Below, one piece after another: positions 7,896 to 29,213 of a DNA stretch of 64,000 nt. Positions within the stretch are counted from its first letter, which is position 1; each line of letters starts with the position of its first letter. Under the pieces are notes generated by a model. That model was not told where the DNA came from. It worked only from the letters and a program-made list of their open reading frames with translations, and searched no databases. The position numbers were made by a program, and so were the translations under genes. This DNA comes from Entophlyctis helioformis (taxonomy: Eukaryota; Chytridiomycota; Chytridiomycetes; Chytridiales; Chytriomycetaceae): NCBI GenBank assembly GCA_025526915.1, contig JAHLKH010000074.1, forward strand, positions 54,487 to 118,486, read 5' to 3'.

Positions 7896-9404
7896 CTATG
7901 CCTTGTCGGGATATGCCTGTCGACCAACAGTCAGCCAGCTTCCATGGCACTCATCACAGCAGATGCAAACACTCGTCTCGCTCACCTCCTTGGAATACGC
8001 GACCAGATCCGTGAACGACGGTCCAAGGTTGACCGTCAACGAATGGAACTCTTCGGGGGCCAGCTTGCTTCCCTTGTTGTAGATGACGTATCCATGGCGA
8101 TCAAAGAACTCGAGCATGTCCGTCGGCTTGCGACCAACGCGGATGATCCAGTTGGGTGCATACTCAAAGAACACCTGGTCGACGCCGTATGTGTCAAAGA
8201 GCGTCGTGGCACCTTCCAGCGCAAAGATCTCATAGCCCTGTGCGGTGTGAGGCGGGGATGCAGGAATGAACGGATGCATGGATGCAGGGATGCAACATGC
8301 AGCATGTCAGTCGCCAGCCTGTTCACGCTCAAGCAATCACTCATCGCTGCGTGCCTGGCAGTCCATCTTCATGTATGCGATCCGCTCCTTGACGACCGTG
8401 TCGATCGGCACAGTGTGGATCTCTTGTGCAAGGAACTTTTCGGGTCCGCCCTGGAAGACCCCAACCGACATGATGTTGCCGGGCTGGCTGCCGTCGGCCC
8501 GTGCACCTTCGTTCTTGGGCAGGATGATGCTGTTGCCGTAGTTGCCAATCTCAGAGTAGATGGTGCTCGAGTCTTCAACCACGCCTGCTCCCGCCGGAAC
8601 AAGGTACACCGACGACTCGCCCGACGTCTGGAACAGGCCCTCGTCGATGTTGGCCTGGATGCTTGCTGCGAGCATCTTGTAGTTGGACGGGGCCGGCTCG
8701 AAGCTGTACACTCGGAATCCCATCGCAGCAAAGAAGAGCGTGCACGAGCCGATGTTGCCACCAATGTCGACCTTCGCATCCAGGTCAGCCATCCAGGATC
8801 AGCATCAGGATCAGTGTCAAGGATCAGCACCAAGGCCAGCGTCACATCCCATGCTGTGGATGCTTCGCTGCAACGTACCACAGTCTTGGACTTGCCAGGC
8901 GTGTTCTTGATCAGCTCGAGTGCCTCCTTCTGCTTGATGCAGTCCTTCCAGAACCCAAACTCGCGAATCTCGGAGCTCACGACATCAAAGTTGTGGTGCA
9001 GATACATAAAGTACGATGGCTCGCTGCGTGTCTTGAACTTCTCGTACGTCGTGTCTGTGGTGTGTCCATGGCGGATGTGGCAGCAGCAGTCAGCTTGCTG
9101 TGCAGGATACACAGCTGCAGGACACACAGCTGCACGACACACGCACAACAGCAACACGCGAGCATGCTCACTCACTGTCATGCACGACTTCGTTGGACAG
9201 CTCGCGCAACAGCTTGGCGCGCCAAAAGTCGGGCGACTGGTATCCCGACGACACTGGCGTGACTGGACGGGCAATGAGCTTGTTGATGTGAGGGTGCCAT
9301 GCCCAGATGGCCGAGAACAGGACTGCGCACGCGACGGCAACGAGCACGGCTGCGCGGCGGTTGATGGCAAAGCCAGCAGGAAGAAGCTTGCGTCCCTTTG
9401 ACAT
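7896..9404 (-). CDS. FkbM-family SAM methyltransferase, type II membrane protein
   Basis: Five exons on the minus strand: 9404-9176, 9054-8879, 8771-8355, 8237-7986 and 7916-7896 (364 aa). Residues about 15-35 form a signal anchor, so the catalytic part faces the Golgi or ER lumen. The S-adenosylmethionine motif VDIGGNIGSCTLFF and the acidic strand VYSFEPAPSNY are followed by YMKMDCQ/GYEIFALEGA, the FkbM hallmark (normally KxDxEGxE). FkbM enzymes O-methylate sugars or other small substrates. Intron 3 starts with GC (CAG/GCACGC) rather than GT. The last exon is only 21 nt and adds AYPDKA; reading through gives another tail that ends at the same stop. It is divergent from the GT31 gene with a 281-bp shared promoter. 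Confidence 0.8.
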
Positions 9405-9685
9405 GACGGTGTGAGACAGAGTCACGGATGGATGGATGGATAGATAGATAGATGAAGGCAAGGACAGGCGCGACAAGATCATTCCATCTCGGTTTTATAT
9501 GGCACGACAAGTGCCAAACTCCGCTGTTGGGGCTGGTGGGCAGCCAGCAAAATCCCATCGCAACAATGATCACTCATCGAAATGCAGTCCCGAGCGTCCT
9601 TCCAAGGCTTGTTTGCCCGCCTGTCTCGCCCACAATAAGAATCGCCAAACCCACGACCCCTGCGCACTTTGCTGTTTCGACCACA
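9405..9685. promoter_or_regulatory. Divergent promoter, FkbM methyltransferase / GT31
   Basis: The two ATGs are 281 bp apart. A minus-strand TATA element (ATATAAAA, 9500-9493) lies about 90 bp upstream of the methyltransferase start. No clear TATA is seen for the plus-strand gene. A short GGAT/GATA-type tract lies at 9427-9452. Confidence 0.5.
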
Positions 9686-10780
9686 ATGCTGTCTGCAAAG
9701 GCGCTGACGATACAAACACGGGTCGTGGCGCTGCTGGCTCTGCTGGTCGTCCTGCTGGTCGGCGGATACCTGTGGCGAGATGAGACGCTGGAAGCGCCAT
9801 ACAGCGTGATAAGGAAGCTTGCCGGCGCACCCGCATCTATGCCAACAACGCATCTGTTGGCGTCCACCTATCCCGACGCCGTCAACAAGTCAACTGCAAA
9901 GGCACTTTGGGACCACAGCCACGATCCAACAGCGTTCGAATGCCCGCGACACAAGCGGCTGCTCTTGGCCGTGCTGTCAACAGCATCCTCGCGGTCCGCT
10001 CTGCTTCGCCACTTCCTTCGCACATTCTACAGCTTCTCTCGCCCCGTCTCGACCGTTGATCTGCTGTTCATCATTGGCCGTCCCAAGGTTGACGAGAAGG
10101 ACCCAGCCATCCAGCAGCGCCAGATCGCCAACCTGCGTCTCGAGCAGGCGATCCACAACGACATTGTCGTTCTGGACATGGACGAAAACATGAACGAAGG
10201 CAAGACGTACATGTCGTTCAAGACCGTCGCCGACATGGCGTCGGCTGGCACTGGCCGCACATACGACTTTGTGGCCAAGTGCGACGACGACACGTTTGTG
10301 CACCTGCCACGGCTGTCCATCTACCTCGATCGTCTGAGCAGGAACACGACCGACGAGCATCCCAACATGTACATTGGCCGGCAGCTGACCGACCAGTTCC
10401 CGCACCCGTTCCCCAATCCGGCCATGTCTGGCATGATGTACATCCTGTCGTGGGATCTCGTCGTCTGGCTGTCCACGTCGCCATTGCCACGCGACGACAT
10501 GTATGGCCACGAAGATCGCAAGATGGGAGACTGGCTCGCAGGCAGCGGCCGGCCGATCAAGTACATCAGCAACGACAACGACTGGTTCGAGCATCGCTGG
10601 TACGGACAAAACTGGGCCAAGGAGTACTCTGACAACTTCATCGCCGTGCACCGATGCAAGGACATTGACTGGCACTGGGACGCCTTGAACCATGCCTTTG
10701 GCAGCCTGCTTCCGCAGCGACCTCCACAAAACTACCGACTGGACTCTACTCCCGATTGCAACATTGTTTATCCTTCATAG
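9686..10780 (+). CDS. GT31-type galactosyltransferase-like enzyme
   Basis: Single exon, 364 aa. The ATG at 9686 is chosen because it puts a typical signal anchor at residues about 13-30 (VVALLALLVVLLVGGYLW); an earlier in-frame ATG would bury that helix. The lumenal domain follows the beta-1,3-glycosyltransferase (GT31) pattern: LLLAVLST.....R...R.TF, then DLLFIIG, E..IHNDIVVLDM.E, YM.FKT, and FVAKCDDDTFV, the DDD metal-sugar motif. GHEDRKMG, near the C-terminus, corresponds to the conserved ED(V/R)xxG. It is expected to add a hexose or N-acetylhexosamine from a UDP-sugar in the Golgi. Neighbours are methyltransferases and other glycosyltransferases. Confidence 0.85.
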   Translation: MLSAKALTIQTRVVALLALLVVLLVGGYLWRDETLEAPYSVIRKLAGAPASMPTTHLLASTYPDAVNKSTAKALWDHSHDPTAFECPRHKRLLLAVLSTASSRSALLRHFLRTFYSFSRPVSTVDLLFIIGRPKVDEKDPAIQQRQIANLRLEQAIHNDIVVLDMDENMNEGKTYMSFKTVADMASAGTGRTYDFVAKCDDDTFVHLPRLSIYLDRLSRNTTDEHPNMYIGRQLTDQFPHPFPNPAMSGMMYILSWDLVVWLSTSPLPRDDMYGHEDRKMGDWLAGSGRPIKYISNDNDWFEHRWYGQNWAKEYSDNFIAVHRCKDIDWHWDALNHAFGSLLPQRPPQNYRLDSTPDCNIVYPS

Positions 10781-11161
10781 CCAAAGCCAAATACACCTGC
10801 AAATGCCACATGGTGCTGTGTGTCTCCCCCATCCCGTTTATTCAGTGTCGGCAGTCATGATTATTATGTATGCTGTAAAACGCAGTCAGCCAGCCAAGAA
10901 ATTCGCTCATTGGCCAGCATTGCGGAGTTGGATATTCGCATCGATGCGACAACAGCCGCTGCAACAACAACCAAGCGTGCGCAGCCAAGCGAGCGAGCGC
11001 ATCTCCGTTCAATCCAGCCGTCAAGTGTGGCAAGGCGGCTCGATGCCACAACACACGCTCCCTCCAACAACAAATGCACTGCCCCTGCCTTAAATTCAAC
11101 TCGAGGTGCCCAAGCAGCTTGCAACATTTGGGACCGCTCGCCGCATTCCACGCCGTCCATC
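10781..11161. other. Intergenic region
   Basis: Between GT31 and the second methyltransferase. No gene-like frame. The 3' half has AAC/CAA-rich words and serves as promoter for the gene starting at 11162; no convincing TATA box is seen. Confidence 0.5.
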
Positions 11162-12580
11162 ATGAGCAAAGCCAACATGCGCATGACACTGTTGGTGTCG
11201 TTCCTCGCTGCCCTGATTGTCATCTTCACGCTGAACTCGAAGCGCGAGTACTCGGCTCTGGACGATGGCAAGCCGCTGTCCCAAAGCGCGTCCCAGTCGA
11301 CGTTTCCGGGCTTCTCTCGCCCTGTGCCGGCTCTTGACCGCGAGGTGGCCGAGCTGTCGCAGTGCATTATGAAGACAGCCGACTTTGACCGCAACGAGGT
11401 GTGCTGGTCCGACTTCAAGCACAAGCAGATGCTCAAGGTCCTTGACCAGCTGGACAGCGCATCTCGTGAGCATATCGAGCACTTTGCAAGCATGAACGTG
11501 TGTATGGCTCACGCAGCCTGCTCTGCCGACTGCATTGTGTGTTTGTGCGATGGCTGACACGGATCCGTGTTGCAAACAGTCTCACTCGGCACACGCGGCC
11601 ATGATCCCGACTCATCAATGCGACATGCTCAAGATCCAGCGGTGAGCAGTTGCTGTCGATGCGCCGTCGATGCGCCGTCTATACGCTGCCCCATCCACTG
11701 TCCCATCCACTGTCCCATCCACTGCACCGATGGATATCTGACCACCGCCTGCCATGCCAGGTTTGGCTCGACCAACGAGATCGCGTATGCCAGCAACCCG
11801 TCAGACAGACACCCCGACGGCCCCAAGTGGATGTGCCCCGAGTACCTGCAGACAAGCGAGAGCGAGCAATGCACGATCTTCTCCATTGGCAGCAACGGCG
11901 ACTTTAACTTTGAGGAAGCCATGCACAAGTTTGTTGGCAACAAGTGCAAGGTATGATGCCGGTGGCAACCACACTTCATGAGTGTGCGTGTGTGTGTGTG
12001 AGTGCGGATCGACTGACTCGCCGCCTGCTGCATCCCAAGATCTACACGTTCGACTGCACTGGCAACTGGTCCAACCCCACGACCGAGTTCCACCCGTGGT
12101 GTGTCTCTGACACCAACGACATCGTGGACGGCCGCCAGTACAAGACTCTGACGACGATGATGAAGGACCTCGACGTCAAGAAGATCCACCTCTTCAAGGT
12201 CGACGTGGAAGGGTGAGACACCGCTGGCACTCTTGCTGCACACGGCTCGCTGCATACTTGAGCTGACGCACTGCGACCCATCTCATCTCACTCCATCACT
12301 CCATCACTCACTCGCTCACTCACTCAGCTACGAGTTCAAGATGTTCAAGTCGCTCGAGAAGGAGCCACTCGCGTCCCTCCCCAAGCAGATCCTGCTCGAG
12401 GTTCACTGGGGAACCAGATGGCCCGGCCAGCAGTCCTTTGACCAGGACAAGGAGACTTGGCTGCCGTATGCAACGTCTTTCTACCGCGGCATCGACAAGA
12501 TGGGTTACAGGATCGCGCTTCGAGAACGCAACATTTACAACGACTGCTGTGCTGAATATGTCTTGGTTCGTGATATCTAA
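11162..12580 (+). CDS. FkbM/METTL24-like methyltransferase, type II membrane protein
   Basis: Five exons: 11162-11497, 11580-11641, 11761-11950, 12040-12212 and 12328-12580 (337 aa). A signal anchor follows the start (MTLLVSFLAALIVIFTL). Family features are KIQRFGSTNEIAYA....WMC, the substrate-side motif seen in animal METTL24-type proteins; CTIFSIGSNGDFNFEEA for the SAM-binding strand and loop; IYTFDCTGNW for the acidic strand; and HLFKVDVEGYEFKMFK for the FkbM core. A HW.....P pattern and a Cys-containing tail end the protein. It is longer at the N-terminus and more diverged than the FkbM gene at 7896-9404, and has no GC-AG intron. It is likely a lumenal O-methyltransferase acting on a glycan. 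Confidence 0.8.
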
Positions 12581-12810: not shown

Positions 12811-13947
12811 TCAGTCCAGCTCGCCTTCCACAAACCGAGCAACGCCGCGGGTGAAGCTTGTTTGGCGCTCGAGGATCTTGGCCACAGTCAAGTCCTTCAG
12901 GTACTCTTCCGCAATGTGGTGCCAGGCGTGCCACAGCAGCTGCTTGTACATTCGCCGGCCGTCGCCGTCCACAAACGACTCGCCGCCAAACACCCAGCTG
13001 GTGCTGTTGTGTGCCAGTTGGACGCCGTGTGGCTCCCATGTCGGGTAGAAGAAGCGGCTGTGATGCACAACGCGGATCCGCTCTGGGTCCTCGAGCCACA
13101 TCTTCTTGGGCAGATGCACCGAGTGCTCGGCCCATTCGGTGGACTGGAAGTCGCGGTAGCTGTTGAGCCAGTCGGTCATGAACGAGTGGCCCGGCGTGGC
13201 AATGATCACCGCATTGCACAGTCCAAACGCTCCACCGAACCCCTCTTCGCCAAGTGTCAGGCCAGGTGTCTTGCTGTAGTACTCGGCCGGGAACGGGTGG
13301 AAGCTGATGACGTCCATGTCCATGTATATGCCGCCATACTTGAGAATGGCTTGCATGCGCACCTGCGACGCAGACGAGTGCGTGTGAGCATCACGAACAC
13401 ATACACTCAGATAGCATGCGGCTACATGCATGACTGCCGCCTTACGATATCGGCCATGTGGGCAGCCTCGACGAGCTTGTTGCCAAACACGCTCTCGACA
13501 GGCTGCACTTGAACGAGCGTGATGTACTTTTGCGACCGATCCCACCACTTGCCCGTGGGCTTGTACACGTGGTAAAAGTAGATCGCCTCTGGTTTGTGGA
13601 CCATAAAGGCAGACTTGCAGCACCGTGTCAGCAGCCAGCAGATTTAGAGTGCCACGCATGTCGTGAGTGTTGCCAGCAAAGCACCAACGCAAGCAGCACA
13701 CCTTGATGGCAATGTAGTGCAGCAGCGTGAACTTTGGGTCTGGCTTCAGGCCATGGATGAAGTGGATGATGTTGGGCACGCCGTCGTCGTGGCTGGTGCT
13801 TATTGGCGGCAGCTGTGGCAGCATGGCGTCTTCCATGACAACACTGCTCGCTTCGCGGACCTCTGTCCACAGTGACGCCACAAGCAGGATCATCACGAGG
13901 ACGGTGCCAAACATGGCACGCTGCAGAAGCGATGGGAATTTGGACAT
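12811..13947 (-). CDS. GT32-type glycosyltransferase (DXD), first copy
   Basis: Three exons on the minus strand: 13947-13702, 13613-13446 and 13362-12811 (321 aa). All introns are phase 0. Signal anchor at residues about 8-27. VPNIIHFIHG opens the catalytic domain, as in OCH1/A4GALT-type enzymes. AAHMADIVRMQAILKYGGIYMDMD carries the glycan-transferase DXD-containing motif that holds the nucleotide sugar and metal. The C-terminal part ends with a HAWHH pattern common in the family. It is convergent with the methyltransferase at 11162-12580. Donor and acceptor cannot be told from sequence; GT32 members transfer mannose, galactose or related hexoses. Confidence 0.82.
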   Translation of the reverse strand: MSKFPSLLQRAMFGTVLVMILLVASLWTEVREASSVVMEDAMLPQLPPISTSHDDGVPNIIHFIHGLKPDPKFTLLHYIAIKVCCLRWCFAGNTHDMRGTLNLLAADTVLQVCLYGPQTRGDLLLPRVQAHGQVVGSVAKVHHARSSAACRERVWQQARRGCPHGRYRKAAVMHVAACYLSVCVRDAHTHSSASQVRMQAILKYGGIYMDMDVISFHPFPAEYYSKTPGLTLGEEGFGGAFGLCNAVIIATPGHSFMTDWLNSYRDFQSTEWAEHSVHLPKKMWLEDPERIRVVHHSRFFYPTWEPHGVQLAHNSTSWVFGGESFVDGDGRRMYKQLLWHAWHHIAEEYLKDLTVAKILERQTSFTRGVARFVEGELD

Positions 13948-14509
13948 GGCTGTGTGTCGAGACCGGTGAAGGATGCGTCTGGGCTGTTGAGGGTGGCGAC
14001 CGAGACGTTCAAGGAACGCACGGAATGACGGGGTTGAGGAAGACGCGGAAGAAGTGATATTGAGACCAGAACGCGATATGGATGCGATGTGGCTGGGACG
14101 CTGTGCTCGAACAGACGGGTGATTGGACGCTGGATGCAGATGGGTCATACGAGTGTCGACGGAGGCCGAATGCAGAGGACAGCCAGCCAGCTGTGGATGG
14201 AGATGCGACTGTGGGTGACGATGAACGTGATTGGTGATTGGCTGGATGGCGACGGGAGAGTGACGGTTGCAGACACTTGGCGGCACCAGGTGGGATCAAG
14301 TTGCAGTGTGGACTGCCACTTGCTGAGACACGAAACACAGTCAAGTGTCCAGACTCACTCGAGCCACGCCGATGCGAACATCTGGCCCGACTGAAACGAG
14401 TTTCAACGAGATGCTGGGGTTGCAGATGTGAACCGACAACATCGACGGTCATGATCAGGCGATGCGTCGTTGTGTTTGACAAGCGGACAGACACGTTCAA
14501 GCTGGCACT
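13948..14509. other. Intergenic region before repeat arm B
   Basis: Promoter side of the GT32 gene. No gene-like frame. From 14463 the sequence (GTCGTTGTGTTTGACAAGCG and following) is shared with the left end of repeat copy C at 19279 but not with arm A. Confidence 0.5.
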
Positions 14510-15408
14510 GCCGAATTCTCATTGGCTTGTCTGGCTGCAGCGACGACTTTGGTGTTGCTGGATCTGGACCCAACTCCGCCGAATTCTCATTGGCTGGCTT
14601 GATGGAGAGTGTTGCTGGATGTGGATGGAGTGGCTGGCTGCTTGGACCATCAGGGCAGACACTGCAAGCGAGGCAGTGTGGCATCGACTGCGACAATGGC
14701 TGTGCATACCTCAGTGTCACACATCGCCTGCTCAAACGACTCCACATCAGCGTTGATGGGCCGAGAGTGGATGCAAGGATGACTGCGACGCCTGCCAGCA
14801 GCCAACACTGCACTTGCATGGTTGATGTGATCACCACACAACAATCACTGCCAGCCAGCCATCCATCTCAGTCGGAGTCTGGCAGAGTGTCGGCCATGGA
14901 CAGACAACAAGAAAAGCATTGATTGGCTGGCTGGTGAGTCAACTCATCGTCGGAGTTTGAGTGAGATTGCCACTCGTGGTTGGACGGCCAGTCTGGCATC
15001 CATCGACTGTGCTGCCAGTCGCTGGCGTGCGAGTCGCAGACGTGTGTGTGTGGCAGGCAGGCGATCCGAGCATTGGCTGCATGTGAATGGGCTGCAAGTG
15101 CATGCGGTGGCTGCAAGGACTGCCAATGACGGCATCCGATCAGTCGCAATGGAGCAGATTGTTGAGCAGTTGCTGTGAGTGCATGTGCAGTGCCATCCGA
15201 GTGGCTGGTTGGTGCAGCAGGAGTCTGGAGAGCAGCCAGACGACAGAGCAAGGCAGCACAGCAGCCAGATGACAGAGCAAGGTAGCAGAGCAGCTTGCAT
15301 TGTGTGTGGTGGGTTCATTGGGGGGATTGATATATACGGATGCTCATGATCGGATGTGATGGGCGAGACAGAGTGACAGACTGACTGACGGACAGACAGA
15401 CGGCATGC

Positions 15409-16215
15409 TTAGCCCCACTTCATCTCGCCGAGCACGACCTTGGCGCCAATGTCGAGGGCAACCTCCATGCCGGCATTCGGGTACAGCGCTCTCATGGCCG
15501 CGTTGAGCTCGGCGCTGGTGGCTGCCTTGGCGCGCTCCGCCTCGAACGCAACCAGGTAATCGCGCGTGTACCGCACGGCATCCACGCCGACGGCCGCGTC
15601 GGGCTTCATGTGGCCCGGCACAACAACCTTGGGTCCCTGTGCGAGGATACCGTCGAGGATGCCGACCCACACGGCGCGCTGCTCGGGAGTGGGGGTGTCG
15701 GCCACCCACACATGCACGCCAGAGAACACCAGCACGCCGCCCACGATGGCGCCGAGGCTCGGCACAGACAGGTAGCGACGGTTGGGGATCGACACGCTGA
15801 CAATGTCGATGGTCTCGCCGTCGACGGTCAGCGACGTGCCGTCAAAGGCCGTCGGGATCACAACGTCGGCGAGCGTCTGCGGGCCGTTGGTCTTGAGCTG
15901 CGGACCCCACACGTCGAGCTTCTTCTGCACGCTGGCGTTGATGGCGGCGATGGTGGCCGACGCCGCAAGCACCTTGGCGTTGGGGAACAGCGTCTTGATG
16001 GGCAGCAGGCTGAAGTAGTAGTCCGGGTCGCTCTGGCTGATGTAGATGGTCGTGAGCGTCTTGCCACTGGCCGTGATGGCGTCGGCGACCGCCTTGCCGT
16101 CGCTGAGCGTGAAGCCGCCGTCGATGAGCACGGCCTCGGTCGGGCCGGTGAGGAGGACCGGCGCGCGGAAGAAACCGTTGGGACCGGCGGGGAACGACTG
16201 CAGCGTGATGGTCAT
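15409..16215 (-). CDS. Metallo-beta-lactamase-fold protein, copy B
   Basis: Encodes the same 268 residues as the gene at 6128-6934. The few nucleotide differences I find (for example a C/T in the ACxCCCACT codons, GTC/GTT in PKVV, and GTG/GTT in ADVVIP) are silent. It has the same TATA element, the same changed metal motif (SQSDPDYYF) and retained PGH. Either gene conversion or selection keeps the proteins identical. The gene sits between GT32 and GT34 of the glycan cluster. Confidence 0.75.
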   Translation of the reverse strand: MTITLQSFPAGPNGFFRAPVLLTGPTEAVLIDGGFTLSDGKAVADAITASGKTLTTIYISQSDPDYYFSLLPIKTLFPNAKVLAASATIAAINASVQKKLDVWGPQLKTNGPQTLADVVIPTAFDGTSLTVDGETIDIVSVSIPNRRYLSVPSLGAIVGGVLVFSGVHVWVADTPTPEQRAVWVGILDGILAQGPKVVVPGHMKPDAAVGVDAVRYTRDYLVAFEAERAKAATSAELNAAMRALYPNAGMEVALDIGAKVVLGEMKWG

Positions 16216-16774: not shown

Positions 16775-17676
16775 CTACAGACCAACGACCTTGTCCTTTT
16801 CGTAGTCGAGCAGAAGGTTCTCAAAGCCAGAGTACTTGCCGACAGACGGGAAATGCACCAAGAGATCGCCAAGCTGCCAGATGCCATCGGGTTTGCTGCT
16901 GCACACGCCGGGGTGGTATGCGTTGATGTCGCGCTGCGGCAGGGACTTGAAGTGGCTCATGGCGTCGGGCATGGCTTGCAGCACCTCGAGCATGGCTGCG
17001 TTCTCTTCCCAGTACGTCGGTGTCGCAATGCGGACCATGTAGACTGCGTGCCGTGTGTCAGATCTCGCATGAGCAGAGAGCCATGCGGGCAGGTGTCATG
17101 CATACCTTCTTCGAAGAACTGCTGCGACCACTTGGACACGCGGACAAGGAAGCTGCCGGCATTGAGGATCACGTTGCAGTCGGGCGACGCCATGAGATCA
17201 AAGCTGTCGTCGAGCAGGTCGGTCACTTTCTTGGAGTGGTTGGTGATCATCGTGTCCATGTCCAGCGACCAAATCCACTCGTGCCGCGCAGCCTTGATAT
17301 GATTCGAGATGGCGCGGATCTTGGACCACACAGCAGGCCGCTTGTCGTCCAGCAGCTCTCGCTGGAAGTACAGGCCGTACCCGTGCTTGGCGGCATACTG
17401 CTGCTTGTTCTTGATGCTGATGTCTTGCCACGTTGGGTATCCCGGCGGCGTGTTGAGCAGCACGATGCCCAGTCGGTTGCGGTTGAGCTGCTGCTCATAA
17501 GTCAGGCCGGTCTGGAACGAGTCGAGCGTGGTCCGCACGACGGCATGCAGCGACGGCAGCGACGCCATGTACATGGACAGACAGACAATCGCCGCAACGA
17601 GAGCGGCGCGAATGATGGCTTGCGGCTTCTTCATCAGTCGCAGCTGGCCTGCCCATCCCGTTACTCGAATCATCAT
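16775..17676 (-). CDS. GT34-type (GMA12/MNN10) glycosyltransferase
   Basis: Two exons on the minus strand: 17676-17106 and 17043-16775 (279 aa), phase-1 intron with GTATGC donor. A signal anchor follows a short basic tail (IIRAALVAAIVCLSMYMASL). The catalytic domain shows the GT34 order: IVLLNTP at the first strand, NKQQYAAKHGYGLYFQ, WSKIRAI, and EWIWSLDMDTMITN, the DXD motif that binds UDP- or GDP-sugar and metal. NAGSFLVRVSKWSQQFFEE is the downstream acceptor region. The family comprises alpha-1,2/1,6-galactosyl-, mannosyl- and xylosyltransferases of the Golgi. The protein is shorter than yeast members (about 390 aa) but contains the full core. Confidence 0.85.
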
Positions 17677-19278: not shown

Positions 19279-20075
19279 GCGTCGTTGTGTTTGACAAGCG
19301 GACTGACACGTTCAAGCTGGTCTGCCGAATTCTCATTGGCTTGTCTGGTTGCAGCGACGACTCTGGTGTTGCTGGATCTGGACCCAACTCCGCCGAATTC
19401 TCATTGGCTAACTTGATGGAGAGTGTTGCTGGATGTGGCTGGAGTGGCTGGCTGCTTGGACCATCAGGGCAGACACTGCAAGCGAGGCAGTGTGGCATCG
19501 ACTGCGACAATGGCCGTACATGTCTCAGTGTCACGCATCGCCTGCTCAAACGGCTCCACATCAGCGATGATGGGCCGAGAGTGGATGCAAGGACGACTGC
19601 GACGCTTGCCAGCAGCCAACACTGCACTTGCATGGTTGATGTGATCACCACACAACAATCACTGCCAGCGAACCATCCATCCCAGTCGGAGTCTGGCAGA
19701 GTGTCGGCCATGGACAGACAACAAGAAAAGCATTGATTGGCTGGCTGGTGAGTCAACTCATCGTCGGAGTTTGAGTGAGATTGCCACTCGTGGTTGGACG
19801 GCCAGTCTGGCATCCATCGACTGTGCTGCCAGTCGCTGGCGTGCGAGTCGCAGACGTGTGTGTGTGGCAGGCAGGCGATCCGAGCATTGGCTGCATGTGC
19901 ATTGGCTGCATGTGCATGCGCTGGCTGCAAGGACTGCCAATGACGGCATCCGATCAGTCGCAATGGAGCAGATTGTTGAGCAGTTGCTGTGAGTGCATGT
20001 GCAGTGCCATCCGAGTGGCTGGTTGGTGCAGCAGCAGCATGGAGAGCAGTCTGGAGAGCAGCCTGGAGAGCAGCC
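19279..20075 (-). repeat. Repeat copy C (truncated)
   Basis: Same orientation as arm B and matching it from about 14464 to 15240. It holds the two 18-bp CCAAT motifs (19324-19341 and 19392-19409, again 68 bp apart) and the non-coding part only; it stops before the beta-lactamase-fold gene. It occupies the space between the GT32 promoter and the GT90 gene. 20076-20316 shows nothing gene-like. Confidence 0.9.
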
Positions 20076-20316
20076 ATACAGTCCCATGCATGGGCTGTCA
20101 TGATGGTCCACTCAAGCCAGTCACGTCCGCTTTCGTGACTCGCGTTCAACTCAGGATTCCCTGGATCGGAGATACTGTCGGTCTACCAGAACTGCTTCGG
20201 CATTGTCAGTGGCATGCTTGCACATGTGCATCGTCTACTGGTGGTGCATGCAGGCCGCTGACTCGCTGGTACCGCATGATATGCTGGCCACAAAGGCGTG
20301 ACCATTCTTCTTAGAA

Positions 20317-21940
20317 ATGAGGCGTCTCCTGAGGCAGGCTGCATTGGTGCTGATGGCCAGCTTGGTAACGCTGGCCCTTCTGCTCGTGGCCACAGACAGC
20401 AACAACACTATCATCGAGGCAAGCAGTGGCATGCTGGACGACATCAGCAGCAGCTTTGTGCAGTCCAAGAGCAACCTTCTGCCTGAAAACGAGACCAGCC
20501 GCTCGCCTGAACTCAAGGAGGCTCGAGCAGCCTACTCGCTCAAAACCGGCCGTCTGCCGCCACCAAACTACGACGGCTGGTACAGCCGTGCTGTTGCCAA
20601 ACAGTGCTTCATCCATGAGTACGACCAGATATTCGACGACCTGGCACCTTTCTACCAGCTTGGGTCCGCCGAGTATCGCAGACGCTTGGAGGTCATCAAC
20701 GCTCGGCCGGATCACATGTTTACTGTCAACATTGTCAACGGCAAGACTCGTGCTGGCCAGTCTGGTGTTTTATGGAAGAAGATGATCGCCAAGGCAAGCC
20801 TGCTGGAAAGCCTGCTGGCATGCATGTCTGATCAGCAGTGCGGTGCAGTGTGGTCGGCTGACACTCGCTCTCTCTTGGCAATCGCAGGTTGTTGCCAACG
20901 TTCCAACGACCAAGGTGTTTCTAAACGGACTGGATGAGCCGCGGATCCTCTTCAACATGGATGCCAACACAAGCATTCCTGCCGAGGCTGCTGTCACTCC
21001 AAAGGATGCCGACTGGCTCACACTGCCACGCGGCGAGCACCAAGCGTTTGTTGCAAAGCAATGCCTGGTGCACAACCCAAAGAAGCCCAACGACACTCTC
21101 AATGGCAAGCACGGCTTCCTGATCGAGCCAGACCGTGGTCCTACTCTACGTAAGTCGCATGTGAGCGCCTTGGACATGTCCTGACACGTTTCCTCGACAG
21201 ACATCTGCTGCCTGTGCTCTCGCAGACGCGCATCACGCCATGCTTTGCCGACATCCTTGTCCCATCAACGTACTACTACCCAGTGGGAGCACCGACATAT
21301 CCAAGTTGCCTTCCTGGACGGAGCGCCAGTCCAAACTGTATTGGCGCGGATCGACAACCGGCGGCCATGCCACCAACGGCAACTGGCGCGAGTTTCACCG
21401 CCACCGCCTGATTATGATGACCAAAGACCAACCAGCGCTGTTCGATGTGGCGTTCACCAAATCACGCAGTGCGATCCAAAGGACTGTAAAGATATCGCCA
21501 AGGAGATACCGATATCCCCGCCATCGCCGTTCACGGATGTCTACAAGTACAAATACGTGCTTGACATTGTAAGAGGGCGGCTGCATGATGCTTCCTCTTC
21601 CACAGACTGACGTGTCTGCGGTGTTGCGGATGGGCAGGACGGCAACTCATTCAGCGGTCGCTATCTCAAGCTGCTGACGAGCGGCGCACTCGTGTTCAAG
21701 ATGACCATCTTCAGCGAGTTCTTTGATCGGTGGCTTGTGCCGTACAAGCACTACATCCCAGTGCAGCCCGACCTGAGCGACCTCGAGGAGAAGGTGCTGT
21801 GGGCAAAGGAGAACGACGCTCTCGCGCAGCAGATTGCACGCGACGGCCGCGAGTTTGTGCTGCGGCACATTAACGAGGAACAGACCGAGTGTTACCTGGA
21901 GCTGCTTCTGCTCGAGCTGGCTCGACTGGGCTCTGATTAG
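20317..21940 (+). pseudogene. GT90 (CAP10-like) glycosyltransferase with three frame changes
   Basis: Exons 20317-20793, 20888-21149, 21201-21568 and 21638-21940. Signal anchor at residues 7-25. The GT90 landmarks are in order: GRLPPPNYDGWY, EYDQIFDDLAPF, LDEPRILF, H.LLPVLS...CFADILVPS, SKLYWRGSTTGG, QCDPKDCKDI, KYKYVLDI/DGNSFSGRYLKLL, and FDRWLVPYKHYIPV. In exon 3 the motifs fall in three successive frames (shifts near 21201, 21280 and 21450), each equal to one missing base. The sum is three, so the spliced frame stays open but about 80 residues would be scrambled. Two shifts sit at CCC and AAA. Intron 1 has a GC donor (AAG/GCAAGC). Either a decaying gene or consensus errors in a working enzyme; GT90 members include fungal capsule xylosyltransferases. 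Confidence 0.75.
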
Positions 21941-22014: not shown

Positions 22015-22149
22015 TGTGAGTGTGTACTCATTCATAGAAGAGCATCATCAGAGCAGGGCGGCATACCTGGCAAGCCTGTAAGTGTGTAGACCACTGCATG
22101 GCTTGCCAGGCGGCGAGATGAGTGGCAATGATCGGCGCCACTCATTACA
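22015..22149 (-). repeat. 3' LTR of the Ty3/gypsy element
   Basis: On the minus strand it starts TGTAATGAGTG directly after the polypurine tract and ends CACTCACA, giving the TG...CA ends and a short imperfect inverted repeat typical of LTRs. Length 135 bp. The matching 5' LTR is missing, so target-site duplication cannot be tested. The pol stop codon lies inside its first bases. Confidence 0.65.
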
Positions 22150-25100
22150 GCCCCCCTTGACGAGAGATCCCAGTGTCATGGTTCCTCAGCACAAGAGAGA
22201 GAGGCAGCATGAGCATTACCAAGCCGAACGCCTGCAATACGATTGCTACGACGCAGGGAACAGAGGCGTTGCGATCCACGGGAGGAGGCACGCGGCGAGT
22301 CGGTTGAAGTGCGGGTGGTCGGGCATCCAATAAAGCAGCCAAGTACTGGTTCAGCATATCAGGTGCAGTCTCGCGCAACTCGACCTCTGAGCAGTACTCG
22401 TTGTGTTGCGGGCCGTAACCGAGGTACAAGACCACAAAGGAGCGGCGGCCGTTGCGAGCGACCTTGTGTCCCACAATCGCGTCAATCTCCCATTCAGCTG
22501 CTGCAGGGTCCTCAGCAAAGGCGACTGCAGGCGGCTGAACAGGCAGTGGCCGGCCAGGGAAAGCGGCTGCCGGATCGCGGTACGGCTTCAGCAGACGGAC
22601 GTGGAACCACGGATGCAGACGCTGCATGGTCGGATGCAGAGCCAGCTTGCAGTTGAGACCATCCAGTGCGGCATTGACCTCTGTGATCGGGAATGGACCC
22701 AACCAGTTGGGCAGGAACGCATTGGGGCGATGCGTGTCGGTGGGCCACACAATGCTGGCGGCTTGCAGCATGACCATGTCGCCGACAGCGTAGGCGGGAG
22801 CATCTCGGCGGTGGCGATCGGCGTTGCGCTTCTGTCGTTCTTGAGCCTTGGTCAGGTTGGCTGTGGCATCCACGCGAGCCTTGTCAATGGCAACGAGCAG
22901 GTCGCGGACAGCAGGCGGCGACGATGCTGCAGGTTCGTGTGGCAGCGTGCGAGGCTCGAGACCAAAGGCGAGGAAGTACGGAGCATAGCCGGTCGATGCA
23001 CTTGGTGCAGAGTTGAGGGCGTGGACAGCCGCATCCAGCATGTGCTCCCAGTTGCTGCCGCGGTGGTTGGCGTACTTGGACAGCAGGTCCTTGAGCGTGC
23101 GGATGGTGCGTTCGGACTGGCCGTTGGTCTCCTGGTGGCGGGCCGTTGCCATGACCTGCTCAATGTCCAGCGCCGCACAGAGCGCCGTCCAGAAGGCAGA
23201 CAGGAACCGAGCGTCGCGGTCCGACACGATGGACGACGGCAGGCCGTGGCCAGCAAGCACGCATCGGTTGAGGAACAGCGCGGCAAGATCCTCGGCAGTC
23301 GCATCGCGTCGCGTCGGCACGCACTTGACAAGCTTTGTCAGGCGATCCACAACCACAAACAGAGCGTCGTTGCCCTCGTCCGGCATGGGCAGCAAGGCAA
23401 TGTCGCAGGCCACAGACTGGAAGCGGTCGGCAGGGATGGGCAGCGGGTGCAGCAGACCGTCAGGAGCCTGTGTCGACGAGTTGAACCGCTGGCAGGCGTC
23501 GCTCGAGCCCACAAAGCGGCCGACCGACGCAGCCATGTCTGGCCAGTAGTAGTGCGCACGTAGACGGCGAGCAGTGCGTGCTTGTCCCTGGTAGCCAGCA
23601 TGAGGCGGCTCGTGGGCCAAGGTGAGCAGGTCGGTGCGCACTTGACCCTCTGGGATCTACATGCGGCCCTCGTGGAACCACAGGCCGTCGACCAGCTCGA
23701 GCTTGGCGGCCAACTGACGCTCGTGTGCAGCAGCATCAGCAGGATCAGCCTTCCAGCGAGCGACGTTGAGCAGGAACGGGTCGGCAGCCAGCAGCGGACG
23801 GATGCGAGCAGCGATGCCAGAGGTGACCGTCGTCAGGGCATCCACTTCAACCTTTGCACGGCAGCGGGCACAGTGCGGAGCAACAGTCACATGGCGCGAC
23901 AGCATGTCAGCCAGGTGGTTCTCACCGCCTTGGATGTACTGGACCACAGCATCAAACTCCTGCAGCTCCATGATCCAGCGAGCCTGGCGGTACAACAGCT
24001 TGGGCTGCGTCGAGATCCAGCGCAGCGATGCATGGTCGGTGTGGATGGTGAAGTGCACGCTGAGCAAGTAGTGCCGGTACTTGTCGCAAGTGTCCACGAT
24101 CGCCAGCATCTCGCGCTCGTGGGTCGGGTAGTTGCGTTCCGCATCATTGAGCTTGCGCGAGTAGAACGAGACCGGATGGATCTTGGCCGTGCCATCCGCC
24201 TCGACATGCTTCTGGCCAATCCAGCCACCAATGGCAAACTCGGATGCGTCCGTGTACACGTGCGTCTCCAGCGATGGGTCAAAGTACTTGAGCACCGGAG
24301 CGTTCGTGATGGCGTCCAGAATAAAGTCCACAATCGCCCACTTGGCCTCGTCCATCACAAAGGGCACGTCTTTGCGCAGCATGTCCGTGAGCGGCACACA
24401 GATGTCGGCGTAGTCTTTGATGAAATCCTTGACCCACACGACTTGCCCAATGAAGCGCCGCAGATCGCCAACAGACCCAATGATTGGCCGAGTCTTCAGT
24501 GCCAGCCGATGCTTGTCCTGGATTGAGTAGCCATCACCCAGCAACAGATGACTGCAGAACTCGAGCAGCGACGAGAAGAACTCGCACTTGGACATCTTCA
24601 GGCGGAGCGATTCGGCGCGCAGACGATGGAACACTTCCTCCAGGTGCAGCAGGTGGTCTGCATTGGTCTCCGAGTAGATCAGGATGTCGTCCATGTAGGC
24701 GACAACGTAGACGTCCAGCAGGTCGTGGAAGATGCGGTTCATCATGGCGTTGAAGGTGGCAGGAGCGTTGCAGAGCCCAAAAGGCATCACCTTGAACTCG
24801 TAGTGGCCGTAGCGAGTCACAAACGCCGTCTTGTGGATGTCGTCCTCGTGGATGCGGATGTTGTAGTAGCCGTCCCGCAGATCGACCGACGACATGAACG
24901 GCTTGCCCGCGACGCGGTCAATGAGCGACTGGATACCGGGCATCGACGCGCGATCCTTGACCGTGATGTTGTTCAGCCCACGATAGTCGATGCACAGACG
25001 CAGACCGCCGTCCTTCTTCTTGGCGATCATGATACCCGCGGCAAATGGCGACACAGAGCCGCGGATCATGCCACGCGCAGCGAGGTCGTCCAGGAACGCC

Positions 25101-25378
25101 TTGACAGCATCCTGGTGCTCAGTCGGCAGCTTCTGCACAGGGCGACGCGGCGGCGGCTTGGACTCAGGCACCAGCTTGATGCGATGATCCTCAGGCCGCG
25201 ACGGCGGCAGGTTGCCCGGTTGGAAGAGGTCCTGGAACTTGATCAGCAGCGGATGGACAACCTCAGGCTGCGTCTCCAGGCTCAGATGGTCGAGTGGATC
25301 CGCCTCGTCAATCGCCGCCATGGCCGCGTCGGTTGCCGTACCTGCTTCCCCATAGCCGGTCAGAGCCACGATCTCGAC
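22145..25378 (-). pseudogene. pol: reverse transcriptase, RNase H, integrase, chromodomain
   Basis: The reverse transcriptase shows LRLCIDYRGLN, SSVDLRDGYY, MPFGLCNAPATF and the catalytic YMDD (AYMDDILIYS). RNase H starts with VYTDASEFAIGGW. The integrase has the D,D-35-E residues in ACDIALLP, VSDRDARFLS and ETNGQSERT, and a GPF module. The chromodomain-like end is EWEIDAIVGHKV....LGYG, with a weak aromatic cage. One in-frame TAG at 23657-23659, between the RNase H and integrase parts, replaces the Tyr codon common in this linker. In the integrase zinc finger the first Cys of the CxxC pair is Ser (GSSDACQRF). Both changes fit a dead copy. Confidence 0.88.
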
Positions 25379-25980
25379 ATATGATGATCGTCCGCATGGA
25401 AATCCTCGTAGCTGACGAACTCAATGCCGTGCTGCGCAGCAATGGCCTCAAGGGACATCGGAGCATTGTCGCAGGGTGGTTCTGGTGCTGGTTCGGGTGC
25501 TGTTTCGGGTACTGGTTCAGGTGCTGGTTCGGGTGCTGGTTCGGGTGTCGGTTCAGGCTCGGGTGACGCTGAGGGGTGCAGACGCCATACAAAGTCGCTC
25601 CCCATGGCCTTGTGGTGGAATGCAAATGAGCAGTCGGCCATATCGCCCTTGGTGATCACCACCTCAGCAAACCACGGCGTACCCAGGATCACATCGGTGC
25701 TGATGTCTGCGACAAAGAACTGCAGCTGCTGCGCGTATTCCCCAACCGCGAGCGCAATGGTCACCGCTTCCGCAACGCGATGGCACTCCTGGTTGGCATA
25801 CTCGACCGTGAACGGCTCAATGGAGCAGGTCTGTGCACCAATCCGACGCGCGAAACTGCGCGACATCACCATACCAGATGCGCCGGTGTCCAGCAGGGCC
25901 ACGCACGGGAACCCATCTGCGGTTGCCATGACGTGCGATCGGATAGGCGAGCGGACCGGCGGCATGGGTTTAGACAAGCA
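25360..25980 (-). pseudogene. Retroelement aspartic protease segment
   Basis: VALLDTGASGMVMS holds the DTGA catalytic motif and VILGTPWF the second conserved strand. A Glu-Pro repeat linker follows. The frame ends at 25360 and the pol frame begins one base back, so a -1 shift in the overlap (25360-25378) would join protease to reverse transcriptase. The N-terminal side is lost at the junction with repeat D. Confidence 0.8.
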
Positions 25981-25982
25981 TT

Positions 25983-26762
25983 GGCATCGACTGCGACAAT
26001 GGCCGTACATGTCTCAGTGTCACGCATCGCCTGCTCAAACGGCTCCACATCAGCGATGATGGGCCGAGAGTGGATGCAAGGACGACTGCGACGCTTGCCA
26101 GCAGCCAACACTGCACTTGCATGGTTGATGTGATCATCACACAACAATCCATGCCAGCCAACCATCCATCTCAGTCGGAGTTTGGCAGAGTGTCAGCCAT
26201 GGGCAGACAACAAGAAAAGCATTGATTGGCTGGCTGGTGAGTCAACTCATCGTCGGAGTTTGAGTGAGATTGCCACTCGTGGTTGGACGGCCAGTCTGGC
26301 ATCCATCGACTGTGCTGCCAGTCGCTGGCGTGCGAGTCGCAGACGTGTGTGTGTGTGGCAGGCAGGCGATCCGAGCATTGGCTGCATGTGCATTGGCTGC
26401 ATGTGCATGCGCTGGCTGCAAGGAGTGCCAATGACGGCATCCGATCAGTCGCAATGGAGCAGATTGTTGAGCAGTTGCTGTGAGTGCATGTGCAGTGCCA
26501 TCCGAGTGGCTGGTTGGTGCAGCAGGAGTCTGGAGAGCAGCCTGGAGAACAGCCTGGAGAGCAGCCAGCCGACAGAGGAAGGCAGCAGAGCAGCTTGCAT
26601 TGTGTGTGATGGGTTCATTGGGGGGATTGATATGTACGGCTGCTCATGATCGTGTGTGATGGGCGAGACTGGCAGACAGACTGACAGGCAGACAGACAGA
26701 CAGACAGACGGCATGCTTAGCCCCACTTCATCTCGCCGAGCACGACTTTGGCGCCAATGTCG
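25983..26762 (-). repeat. Repeat copy D (truncated by the retroelement)
   Basis: Same orientation as arms B and C. It matches arm B from about 14682 to 15460, has lost the CCAAT-motif end at the retroelement junction, and stops just inside the beta-lactamase-fold gene. Its right end therefore differs from copy C. Confidence 0.9.
26717..26762 (-). pseudogene. Last 15 codons of the beta-lactamase-fold gene
   Basis: The minus strand encodes DIGAKVVLGEMKWG and the stop, identical to the end of the genes at 6128 and 15409, then similarity ends abruptly at 26762. It proves that copy D derives from a unit that carried the gene. Confidence 0.85.
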
Positions 26763-26941
26763 GGGACAGTGATAACGAGAGCATTGGCCGCTTCGCGTTT
26801 TTGTTATCATAGCCGCTCGTCTCGCTTTCCCCGGCCCACCGACATCACGCAGCCCAGCAGAACTACGTCTGAAACCGTCCAGACCATAGCGCTTATCTCA
26901 GCTGTCGTCTTGGTTGTACACAGCCTTGCATAGGCACGACA

Positions 26942-29213
26942 ATGACACCACGGTCCGAGTGTAGCGCATGGCCGGATTCAGCGTCTCAAGGCACGCCGCA
27001 CGATAACAACTCTGCTCATGTCCAGCCGTCCGTTGAAGAGCACCATCACCGCAACGCAGATGGCACAGTCAGAGGGTTTCAGCCAGCACACAGGCACTCA
27101 GCAAAACGACAGCGACCCTTATCGATACGCCAGTGTTTTGCAGTGTCTGCAGTTCTGTCGCTGGTTGTGCTGGTCGCGAATGTGTGGCTTCTCGTCCATG
27201 GCGGCCGCGCGATTTCAAAGTCGGGCTTGTCGGCATCGGAAACAGATGCCAAGCCGATTGCGATTGCAGACCCAAACGTTGCGCCAACGCTCGCCGGCTC
27301 GCTGTTTGCAACAGGCCGTCATGCACACGCCATTGTGGTTTGCGATGCCGGCAATGTTGACCGTGCACTCGTCCTTTTGGCCGGTCTTGCTGACACTGGG
27401 ACGACAGCCGCTCGACTCCTGATCGTATCTACTGATACAGCAAGCACGATCGCGCCACTGCTTGACCGTATGCAACGACCCGTCGAAGTTATCGAGATTC
27501 CACATGTGGAAGGAGCGGCAGAGCAGAGCAACAGAGCGGCTTGCATCAACAACGCACTCGTTCACGCGTGGAACGTGACTGCCTACTCTCGCATCGCTCT
27601 TGCCAACCCGAGCATCATGGTGCCTGTGCAGCAGCCCGACACCGTCTTTCTACTGCCGCATCTGTCGGGCACACGCGACGAGCGCGACAACCTGGACGGC
27701 GGCCTGCTTGTGTTTGCTCCCGATGCATCCATCGCCACTGCGCTCGCTGCTCGCTTTGCAGAGACACCTGCCGCTGTGAGCGCAGGGACGGATACCTTGA
27801 CTCGCGCTCTCGCCGTGCTTCAAGCGACGATCGCCCAGTCACTGGCCAAGGGAAAGACCGCTGGATCACACAATGGCCCGTTCACGGTCCCGTCCCGCCT
27901 TGTCCCACCCATCGCGCTGTACGCTTCTGACCCAGATGTCCGCAGCTCGGCAGCCTTTGTGCGTCTGTCGCCGTCGGTCAATCCATGGACAGTGCTGACA
28001 GCCGGCGATGCCTCTTGGCAGCGACATGCTGATATGTCCGTCTTTGGTATTTGGACGTCACGGCATCATCAGATCCGCCAGCATGTCCGTCTCGCCAGCG
28101 ACAACGATCTGGGCAGTCTCGGCCTTGGCAACATTGACGGCGGCGATGACAAGGTCAAGCGCAAGATGGAGCAGTGGGCGTATAGCAACCGCAGCGATCT
28201 CGTCTGCCGGCCGTTCATGGCCAGCATGCACAAACTGAGTGTCGCCCGTCAGCAGCCGGCGTCGGCATTCCGCTCCAGCCTCGTCACAGACCGGTTCTCT
28301 GTCCTCATGTCCACGTTCAACCGCATCGAGACAGTCAGGCGGCTCATCAAGTACTACAGACGGTCGCCGCTGGTGGATGCGCTGTTCCTCACGTGGCACA
28401 ACCCGCATGCAGAGCCGCCCCAAGCGCTCCTCGATCTGGCCGATGCGGTTGTGTTTGACAATGCGTCCGAGGTCGATTGGGACGCCATTGCTCAATCGCG
28501 AGCAGCCAAGGCGGACCAGAAGCAGCAAGGCAGCGATGCGTACCTGGCAACCGTCATTATTGTGCGCCAACAAACCGATACCCTCAACAACCGCTTCAAT
28601 CCGATTGCGGGCATCCGCACACCGAGCGTTCTCATGATCGACGACGACATCCGCATTCCTCTGAGAGACCTGCAAGTCGGGTTTCATGCATGGCTGGCCC
28701 ACACTGACCGCCTCGTGGGTTTCTTTCCGCGCACACACGAGGTCACGGACACACACAACACAAGTGACTCTACACGCTGGGACTACAAGTATCACTACGG
28801 CCCGATCGCCGCACACCGCGACTATTCCATGATGCTGACCAAGGGCATGTTCCTGGGCACGGATCTGCTGTTTGCGTACACGTGCCTGCTGCCGCCGCGC
28901 GTGCACGCCTACATTGACGCCATCAAGAACTGCGAAGACATTGCCATGAATTTCGTGGCGTCGGGTCTGTCCGGCACTCGCCCATGGCCGTCAACACGCT
29001 ACGCGACACTCGGATGGTATCACCGACTTTGGACGCGATGATGGGATATCCGTCAAGACAGGACACCAGGACGCGCGGTCACGGTGCCTGCGCGATCTGG
29101 CTGTGCTGTTTGGCAAGATGCCGCTACAGAGTACCAGCATCGAAGTCAACCGGTACACTGACAATGCGCCGTTTGTGTTTGGTGAGCTGCGCGACTGGCA
29201 GTCCGACGAGTGA
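26942..29213 (+). CDS. GT64 (exostosin-like) glycosyltransferase with two frame changes
   Basis: Intronless. Type II membrane protein with the anchor at residues about 64-88. A middle domain (RHAHAIVVCDAG...ARLLIVSTD) resembles a GT-A-like fold without a clear DXD. The C-terminal GT64 domain, as in exostosin and EXTL3, is well preserved: DRFSVLMSTFNRIETVRRLIKYY, TLNNRFNPI.GI.TPSVLMIDDDI, VGFFPR, YSMMLTKGMFLG, and NCEDIAMNFVASGL. Near the end the frame must change twice (at CCC about 28981 and GG about 29012, one base lost each) to continue through DDGISVKTGH to the TGA at 29211-29213; without these the protein stops at 29041. EXT-type enzymes polymerise or start glycosaminoglycan-like chains, an unusual activity in fungi. 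Confidence 0.78.

Follow-up and report, generated by a model that had tools for sequence, protein, structure and literature searches.

In eukaryotes, to our knowledge, Golgi glycosyltransferase genes of unrelated families are seldom found clustered. An interval in the chytrid fungus Entophlyctis helioformis raises the question of whether such genes form one pathway or only share a place. The window, meaning the whole stretch of 64,000 nucleotides that was analysed, is part of contig C74. Its positions 7896-29213 encode six glycosyltransferases predicted to be membrane-anchored (GT31, GT32 twice, GT34, GT90 and GT64), together with two methyltransferases, one FkbM and one Methyltransf_22 (MT22). 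The interval also holds a metallo-beta-lactamase-fold (MBL) gene and a Ty3-type retrotransposon (Table 1). The cluster genes occupy both strands, and all eight cellular genes other than MBL are glycan-active. Co-located genes of one pathway class are a criterion for a functional fungal biosynthetic gene cluster, and the locus has such genes.

Table 1. Features of the cluster and its neighbourhood, in window positions.
Feature	Position	Strand	Details
MFS sugar transporter beside cluster	3885..5282	+	PF00083 397 bits
Second MBL copy within window	6128..6934	+	
First of the four R repeats of this cluster copy	6948..7836		
FkbM-type methyltransferase	7896..9404	-	several exons (read by eye), N-terminal anchor; PF05050
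GT31 (Galactosyl_T) glycosyltransferase	9686..10780	+	one exon; PF01762 37.3 bits
Methyltransf_22 methyltransferase, anchored	11162..12580	+	five exons as read; PF13383 42.7 bits; NCBI protein P0002, same contig
GT32 glycosyltransferase a (Gly_transf_sug)	12811..13947	-	PF04488 27.4 bits
R repeat between GT32a and MBL	14508..15399		
MBL-fold gene, Vmh-like kind, intronless	15409..16215	-	NCBIfam NF040580 E 3e-76
GT34 glycosyltransferase	16775..17673	-	PF05637 65.3 bits
GT32 glycosyltransferase b	17979..19201	-	PF04488 57.1 bits
R repeat in interval between divergent GT32b and GT90 genes	19322..20076		
GT90 (CAP10/POGLUT-type) glycosyltransferase	20317..21940	+	PF05686 73.5 bits; NCBI P0015, 456 aa
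Ty3-type retrotransposon: protease, reverse transcriptase, RNase H, integrase	22145..26013	-	
R repeat upstream of GT64	25982..26699		
GT64 glycosyltransferase	26942..29213	+	PF09258 140.4 bits; NCBI P0001; present in copy 2 only

The locus was scanned with Pfam profiles as 19 reading frames between 7.9 and 29.2 kb of the window. The scan backs each of the six glycosyltransferase assignments that a sequence-only reading of this DNA had made. That reading also proposed two FkbM-type methyltransferases. Two methyltransferases are indeed present, and one is FkbM (PF05050 at window positions 8337-8798, 26.5 bits, above the curated cut-off of 22.7), but the other belongs to PF13383. The FkbM and GT31 genes lie head-to-head, with start codons about 280 bases apart.

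Hydropathy supports the anchored topology of the sequence-only reading. A hydrophobic N-terminal stretch is present in 7 of the 7 proteins for which hydropathy was computed (best KD19 from 1.99 to 2.52), that of GT64 beginning at residue 67; in the eighth protein, FkbM, the anchor was judged by eye. Motifs that we take to be DxD/DDD and SAM-binding motifs are present in the cluster enzymes, such as KCDDDTF in GT31 and YMDMDV in GT32a.

The nearest solved relative of GT34 is xyloglucan 6-xylosyltransferase 1 (E 2e-6), and the only solved match of GT32b is an initiation-specific alpha-1,6-mannosyltransferase (E 4e-5). POGLUT1 is the nearest solved relative of GT90, which shares the PF05686 domain with this animal protein and with Cryptococcus CAP10/CXT1. 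The GT32 and GT34 proteins have the same Pfam families and anchored topology as the yeast-type outer-chain mannan enzymes (OCH1 in GT32, MNN10/GMA12 in GT34). In yeasts the genes for these enzymes are scattered, whereas in Entophlyctis the GT32 and GT34 genes are clustered with methyltransferases and with GT31, GT90 and GT64.

Likeness to EXT1/EXT2 and EXTL2 is seen in the GT64 domain, which matches EXTL2 and the C-terminal half of EXT2. Exostosin polymerases combine GT47 and GT64 in one protein, whereas no GT47 was found in the 722-residue GT64 frame at E 0.1 or in 367 submitted N-terminal residues at E 10. Of the exostosin-like polymerising domain proposed earlier, then, GT64 is present and GT47 is not found. 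About 450 residues, anchor included, precede the GT64 domain. For most of this N-terminal part, submitted as 367 residues, neither Pfam nor PDB gave a match at E 10, and a GT8-like domain was rejected for that reason. A search with the protein returned the window's own NCBI protein as the sole hit among the matches listed.

The rest of the genome holds few genes of the cluster's families, and for this reason the grouping is not attributed to chance. The same families are not found in many random windows, though GT31-like genes are fairly common, with 10 of 14 matches lying off C74. For eight genes to fall within any one interval of 21.3 kb, the chance bound is 1e-16 if 29.57 Mb contain 20 loci of these families, 6e-16 after a recount to about 24 loci, and 2e-9 if, as a guess, 20 Mb contain 100 glycosyltransferase genes; these bounds are indicative only, because the families were picked for being at this locus. 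Chance co-location is rejected on these low bounds, and the cluster stands as real and non-random. A telomeric setting was also rejected, since the outermost 1.5 kb of C74 contain neither TTAGGG nor CCCTAA, at one end or the other.

To the left of the cluster, 2.6 kb from the end of FkbM, is an MFS sugar transporter. An identical 498-residue MFS reading frame is found on contig C55, near peptide-synthetase domains, and the two places share, at 97%, a segment of 6 kb that includes MFS and 7tm genes. The transporter was rejected as a cluster member because of this identical-protein copy, and is probably a passenger.

In the flanks that were read, no such cluster surrounds the paralogues of FkbM, GT90 and MT22, and no second cluster family was found beside paralogues in the flanks fetched. 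Their neighbours are housekeeping genes, namely MutS (C113), a cullin and ribosomal protein L22/L17 (C164), a chromate transporter (C281) and KTI12 (C179). The FkbM paralogues are on C113, where FkbM is doubled again. The MT22 paralogue (C281) and a GT34 paralogue (C69) are at contig starts, with the flank visible on one side only.

Trees join the cluster copy with a dispersed paralogue for GT90 (100/99; 12 of 120 proteins) and for MT22 (97/98 in the 8-row tree), and both pairs are Entophlyctis-specific. The MT22 tree took 12 of 13 proteins; some of its branches were flagged as long, and the rerun kept 8 of the 12 rows. The 12-row tree does not resolve the Entophlyctis pair. Outside Entophlyctis, the best GT90 matches listed are from chytrids at no more than 53% identity, followed by Mycena and other basidiomycetes.

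The sequence-only reading had counted orthologues scattered in related species, with no co-expression, against a pathway, and this is partly what is seen. In all three of the species with usable locus tags (Batrachochytrium dendrobatidis, B. salamandrivorans and Polyrhizophydium stewartii), the tags of the closest relatives of MT22 and GT90 are far apart, and this concerns one gene pair of 28. The tags suggest that MT22 and GT90 are unlinked in these three chytrids. The cluster appears to be young and specific to this lineage.

The MBL-fold gene had been described as duplicated. There is more than one copy, but C74 carries five, not just the two in the window. The gene matches NF040580 (Vmh-family MBL hydrolase) at E 3e-76, but with 256 bits, below the curated cut-off of 430, and no solved relative was found by sequence. 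Its identity to bacterial genes is 64-70% for the best 80 of 287 loci. On this identity, it may have come from bacteria by transfer. A degenerate metal site was rejected, as the stretch QSDPDYYF also occurs in 80 of the 80 bacterial loci fetched, though it was also among the six patterns by which these loci were retrieved.

MBL-R and R repeats sit between gene modules. At the repeat upstream of GT64, the longer unit matches as far as 26765, and a piece of the 3' end of MBL is part of this match. On other contigs, the allelic C285 excepted, the searches found no match to R longer than about 50 bases.

Seven of the eight glycan genes occur again 38 kb upstream on C74, in the same order, on the same strands and with 97-98% identity. 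This repeat (FkbM-GT31-MT22-GT32-MBL-GT34-GT32-GT90-TE) is at C74:22286-43521, outside the window, and the retrotransposon has the same place in both copies. GT64 is absent from copy 1 and has an allele at C305. Between the copies, 24 of 1374 synonymous and 11 of 4728 nonsynonymous sites differ (dN/dS about 0.13), a sum that leaves out GT90 exons 2-4, the GT32a middle exon, FkbM exon 1, MT22 exon 2 and non-gene frames, and whose blocks for GT31 and GT34 reach upstream past the start codon by about 150 and 76 bases. Purifying selection acts on the coding sequence in both copies. Motifs are kept in both, and a wholly decayed gene block was rejected on this and the coding constraint. The GT31 of copy 1 is frame-broken, split over three frames, and GT90 has single-base indels in both copies; these come from assembly error or decay.

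The reading preferred here, with about an even chance of being right, is a young, lineage-specific eukaryotic cluster whose anchored Golgi-type enzymes act in turn to give a methylated surface heteroglycan. Its core would be seven such enzymes (FkbM, GT31, MT22, GT32a, GT34, GT32b and GT90), with GT64 attached at one of the two copies. They would act one after another on a protein- or lipid-linked acceptor. The OCH1-like GT32 steps may place an inner sugar, probably mannose. GT34 could add alpha-linked and GT31 beta-linked branches, GT90 xylose or glucose, and GT64 N-acetylhexosamine, while the two methyltransferases would O-methylate outer sugars. The product would be a methylated heteroglycan at the surface of the zoospore or of the sporangium. 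The single pathway is a putative one, as are each linkage and donor and the Golgi and surface locations. A capsule-like product is less likely than the decoration of glycans linked to protein or lipid.

A tentative and somewhat improbable extension is that the cluster has been caught forming. Dispersed duplicates of Golgi glycosyltransferases and sugar methyltransferases would have been assembled in one chytrid lineage, interleaved with the bacterial-type MBL gene, itself multiplied into repeats specific to the locus, and the block copied whole, giving a new O-methylated surface heteroglycan pathway.

Whether the second copy is a real duplication is a separate question, compatible with the other explanations. 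C74 may join both haplotypes of a diploid at MBL-R repeats, in which case the cluster would be real but single; this has a little less than an even chance. C285 is colinear with the left flank and breaks off within the MBL-R repeat; C305, which follows the right flank in the same way, starts within GT64. The part searched (window 12600-20000) is found at full length only twice on C74 and nowhere else. The flanks of the two copies differ on both sides, which speaks against a join, as does the additional 1.6 kb or so that copy 1 has between GT32b and GT90. The dS between copies (about 0.017) nevertheless falls in the allelic range, with divergence of 0.030 for CDC48, 1 of 644 sites for a bZIP gene and 0 of 121 for a GT64 piece.

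It is unlikely that a duplication-prone locus, in which MBL-R repeats and retrotransposons drive the changes, captured and kept glycosyltransferase genes of unrelated pathways, proximity being a by-product of recombination. Random capture would hardly be expected to gather eight cellular non-MBL genes that are all glycan-active, and the coding sequence is constrained in both copies. Such capture is consistent with the repeats between gene modules, the short R matches elsewhere (allelic C285 apart), the MFS/7tm segment shared with C55, the doubling of FkbM on C113 and a linkage seemingly not conserved in other chytrids.

Very improbable is the idea of the sequence-only reading, a bacterial-capsule-like pathway to a polymerised exopolysaccharide: GT90 is of the CAP10 family and GT64 of the exostosin C-terminal family, but GT64 has no detectable GT47 partner, the enzymes resemble single-anchor Golgi types, and the analogy is weak because the traits of bacterial capsule loci (flippase and polymerase or ABC exporter, nucleotide-sugar genes) were not seen among the 19 scanned frames.

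For a methylated surface heteroglycan made by clustered genes, a fungal comparison is the galactosaminogalactan (GAG) cluster of Aspergillus fumigatus. In the portion of PMC4817252 consulted, its genes are co-regulated and comprise the Uge3 epimerase, the transmembrane glycosyltransferase Gtb3, the Agd3 deacetylase, the Ega3 hydrolase and Sph3. Both are fungal gene clusters for a surface glycan, here a predicted one. The Entophlyctis locus differs in having six anchored glycosyltransferases and two methyltransferases, with none of those five GAG genes seen; no GAG-type epimerase, polysaccharide deacetylase, hydrolase or Gtb3-type transferase is among the Pfam matches of the 19 frames. No account of the locus was found in the portions consulted of the literature on the glycosyltransferase clusters and genomes of chytrids, on zoospore coats and on fungal FkbM (including PMC8887899).

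If the genes are co-regulated, the locus would be a way into the chemistry of chytrid zoospore coats. It would likewise be a case study of a eukaryotic gene cluster built from scattered duplicates.

The cluster consists of eight enzyme genes and lies on C74, a contig of 118,486 bases whose right-hand 64 kb make up the window, in the 29.6 Mb assembly of Entophlyctis helioformis. NCBI taxonomy places this species in Chytriomycetaceae, which confirms the chytrid source supposed in the sequence-only reading. Gene boundaries were set by eye from translations, and the GT64 protein matches NCBI BC831DRAFT_550894. Pfam supports all the gene families named in the sequence-only reading, with the correction that the second methyltransferase is a Methyltransf_22 protein (PF13383; MT22) and not FkbM. 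Two gene pairs are divergent, FkbM/GT31 and GT32b/GT90. The glycosyltransferases had also been called membrane proteins, and the N-terminal stretch is strongly hydrophobic in all seven enzymes computed (hydropathy score KD19 of 1.99-2.52), in contrast to 1.17 in the metallo-beta-lactamase-fold (MBL) protein; that of FkbM, judged by eye, is hydrophobic too. Among the enzymes, both SAM-binding motifs and acidic motifs of the DxD or DDD type occur.

Features of the cluster, its surroundings and related loci (window positions unless a contig or locus is named)
Feature	Position	Strand	Remark
Cluster, copy 2	7896-29213		FkbM -, GT31 +, MT22 +, GT32a -, MBL -, GT34 -, GT32b -, GT90 +, Ty3 element (retrotransposon) -, GT64 +
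MT22	11162-12580	+	PF13383
Cluster, copy 1	C74:22286-43521		colinear with 5817-25497
MBL-fold gene, bacterial kind	6128-6934	+	five copies on C74
MBL-fold gene, bacterial kind	15409-16215	-	
R repeat, ~0.9 kb, 3' of MBL	6948-7836, 14508-15399, 19322-20076, 25982-26699		eight copies on C74
Rhodopsin-family 7tm_1 receptor ORF	811-2079	+	PF00001, E 2.4e-14; copy on C55
MFS sugar transporter	3885-5282	+	
MFS sugar transporter	C55:87409-88902		
bZIP-like protein	33970-37014	-	below Pfam cut-off
Chitin synthase	47164-49527	+	Chitin_synth_2 with CHS4 domain
TnpB-like protein	L011:8622-9293	-	PF07282; adjoins dispersed GT90 gene of C164
FkbM exon copies	C113:13944-14384, 63567-64007		equal score, 50 kb apart

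The co-location of these genes is not due to chance. The genome holds about 24 loci of the cluster's families, eight of them here, and the chance bounds are 1e-16 for 20 loci, 6e-16 for 24 and 2e-9 for a guessed 100 glycosyltransferases. The whole-genome six-frame searches, run exon by exon and giving lower bounds, point to few places outside C74: at least one place each for GT90 and MT22, at least two each for GT32 and FkbM, at least two GT34 genes and, for GT64, only an allele at the edge of contig C305. GT31 is commoner, with six of seven Pfam matches off C74; a protein search gave 14 matches, ten off C74 and four on it, three of the latter being fragments of copy 1. The GT31 matches on C174 and C335 resemble two haplotypes (96.5% identity). 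The FkbM exons of the cluster itself escaped the PF05050 search; in a protein search both came up, together with two copies of equal score on C113.

Copy 1 repeats the cluster in three pieces at 97.0-98.2% identity. Seven of the eight enzyme genes are present, and the position of the missing GT64 is occupied by R-MBL-MFS. Motifs are retained in both copies, differences are mostly intergenic, and the exon blocks that were compared differ at 24 of 1374 synonymous and 11 of 4728 nonsynonymous sites (ratio 0.13). GT31 of copy 1 is broken across three frames, and GT90 has single-base indels in both copies, at least two within homopolymers; NCBI holds an intact GT90 model of 456 residues with two member sequences on C74. 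The frame breaks in copy-1 GT31 and in GT90 are likely assembly errors.

The two copies may be a true segmental duplication or two haplotypes joined in C74. Duplication is favoured by flanks that differ on both sides and by copy 1 being about 1.6 kb longer between GT32b and GT90. The dS of 0.017 between copies falls inside the allelic range seen (CDC48, 0.030; bZIP gene, 1 of 644 sites; a GT64 piece, 0 of 121). C74:83012-90913 has a colinear counterpart in C305:1-8000 (97.1 and 95.8% identity), and the left flank has one in C285 (96.6% identity over 7.2 kb), a contig that ends within the MBL-R repeat. Haplotypes were thus kept separate in parts of the assembly, and the other haplotype's cluster is absent between C285 and C305 while two stand on C74. 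The paired FkbM on C113 likewise points to large segments of this assembly having been recently duplicated or to haplotypes having been joined. Gene order is common to both copies and so is unaffected by this question.

The MBL gene is intronless and, among the best 80 of 287 loci, 64-70% identical to bacterial proteins, mostly of Proteobacteria by title, the top one from an acidobacterial metagenome-assembled genome. In a collection of bacteria and archaea only, such matches suggest acquisition by transfer. Where the usual HxHxDH metal site would be, the protein has SQSDPDY, a stretch shared, apart from S/T exchange, by the 80 bacterial relatives that were retrieved. One comparison of copies gave four synonymous and no nonsynonymous changes. 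Searches with parts of R, skipping simple repeats, found matches on C285 and, on the remaining contigs, nothing longer than about 50 bases. Copies of R sit upstream of GT32a, GT32b/GT90 and GT64, and may have mediated rearrangements or share regulatory sequence.

Other genes lie nearby. Fungi seldom have class A receptors such as the 7tm_1 ORF. The same MFS transporter protein is encoded three times, by two inverted reading frames on C74 and by one on C55; the C55 frame is near AMP-binding and Condensation domains (peptide-synthetase type) and an acyl-CoA-ligase-like gene. The bZIP-like protein, right of GT64, and the chitin synthase are not treated as cluster members.

Paralogues of the cluster genes are dispersed: FkbM on C113 (about 87% DNA identity), GT90 on C164 (90%) and MT22 on C281 (72%). 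Neighbours around the first C113 copy include coiled-coil-like and MutS genes; on C164 they include ERp29, a helicase, a cullin, ribosomal protein L22/L17 and a TnpB-like gene, and on C281 LRR genes and a chromate transporter gene. A GT34 on C179 lies beside KTI12, a kinase and an oxidoreductase, and neither of two ORFs next to the C69 GT34 matches any Pfam family. In tblastn of the cluster proteins against 8-23 kb at each of these five contigs, no second cluster family was found; C281 MT22 and C69 GT34 sit at the contig start. In trees, cluster GT90 pairs with the dispersed Entophlyctis copy (support 100/99), and the corresponding MT22 pair is recovered with 8 rows (97/98) and not resolved with 12. 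The nearest MT22 and GT90 genes of B. dendrobatidis (BDV3_000660, BDV3_005693), B. salamandrivorans (BSLG_008605, BSLG_006626) and P. stewartii (HK105_202063, HK105_201639; one further gene of each exists beyond these) have tags far apart and differ in the longest contigs listed, from which we infer that they are unlinked. Conserved co-location in other chytrids, which the sequence-only reading had named as support for a pathway, does not seem to hold in these three species for this pair, one of 28. Because of the dispersed paralogues, the pairing within Entophlyctis and this inferred non-linkage elsewhere, the cluster most likely arose in the Entophlyctis lineage, as judged from the one gene pair of 28 tested.

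Surface-glycan genes can be clustered in fungi, as the GAG cluster of A. fumigatus shows (PMC4817252), but its enzymes differ from those found here. Chytriomyces zoospores are reported to have a polysaccharide cell coat in a 1983 title cited in PMC8887899. For papers naming E. helioformis in the library searched, no listed title concerned glycans, and literature joining Entophlyctis with glycosyltransferase gave only work on Rhizoclosmatium globosum development.

The nearest solved relatives are EXTL2 and EXT2 for GT64, xyloglucan xylosyltransferases for GT34, initiation-specific alpha-1,6-mannosyltransferase for GT32b, POGLUT1 for GT90 and, weakly (E 0.004), beta-1,3-galactosyltransferase 6 for GT31. 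By sequence likeness, these suggest linkage types rather than donors. The sequence-only reading had proposed a capsule-like or other surface polysaccharide; since no polymerase, exporter or nucleotide-sugar gene was seen among the 19 frames scanned at the cluster, stepwise assembly is a better fit than a capsule polymer. The enzymes would then work in the Golgi and build a glycan step by step, with a protein or a lipid as acceptor.
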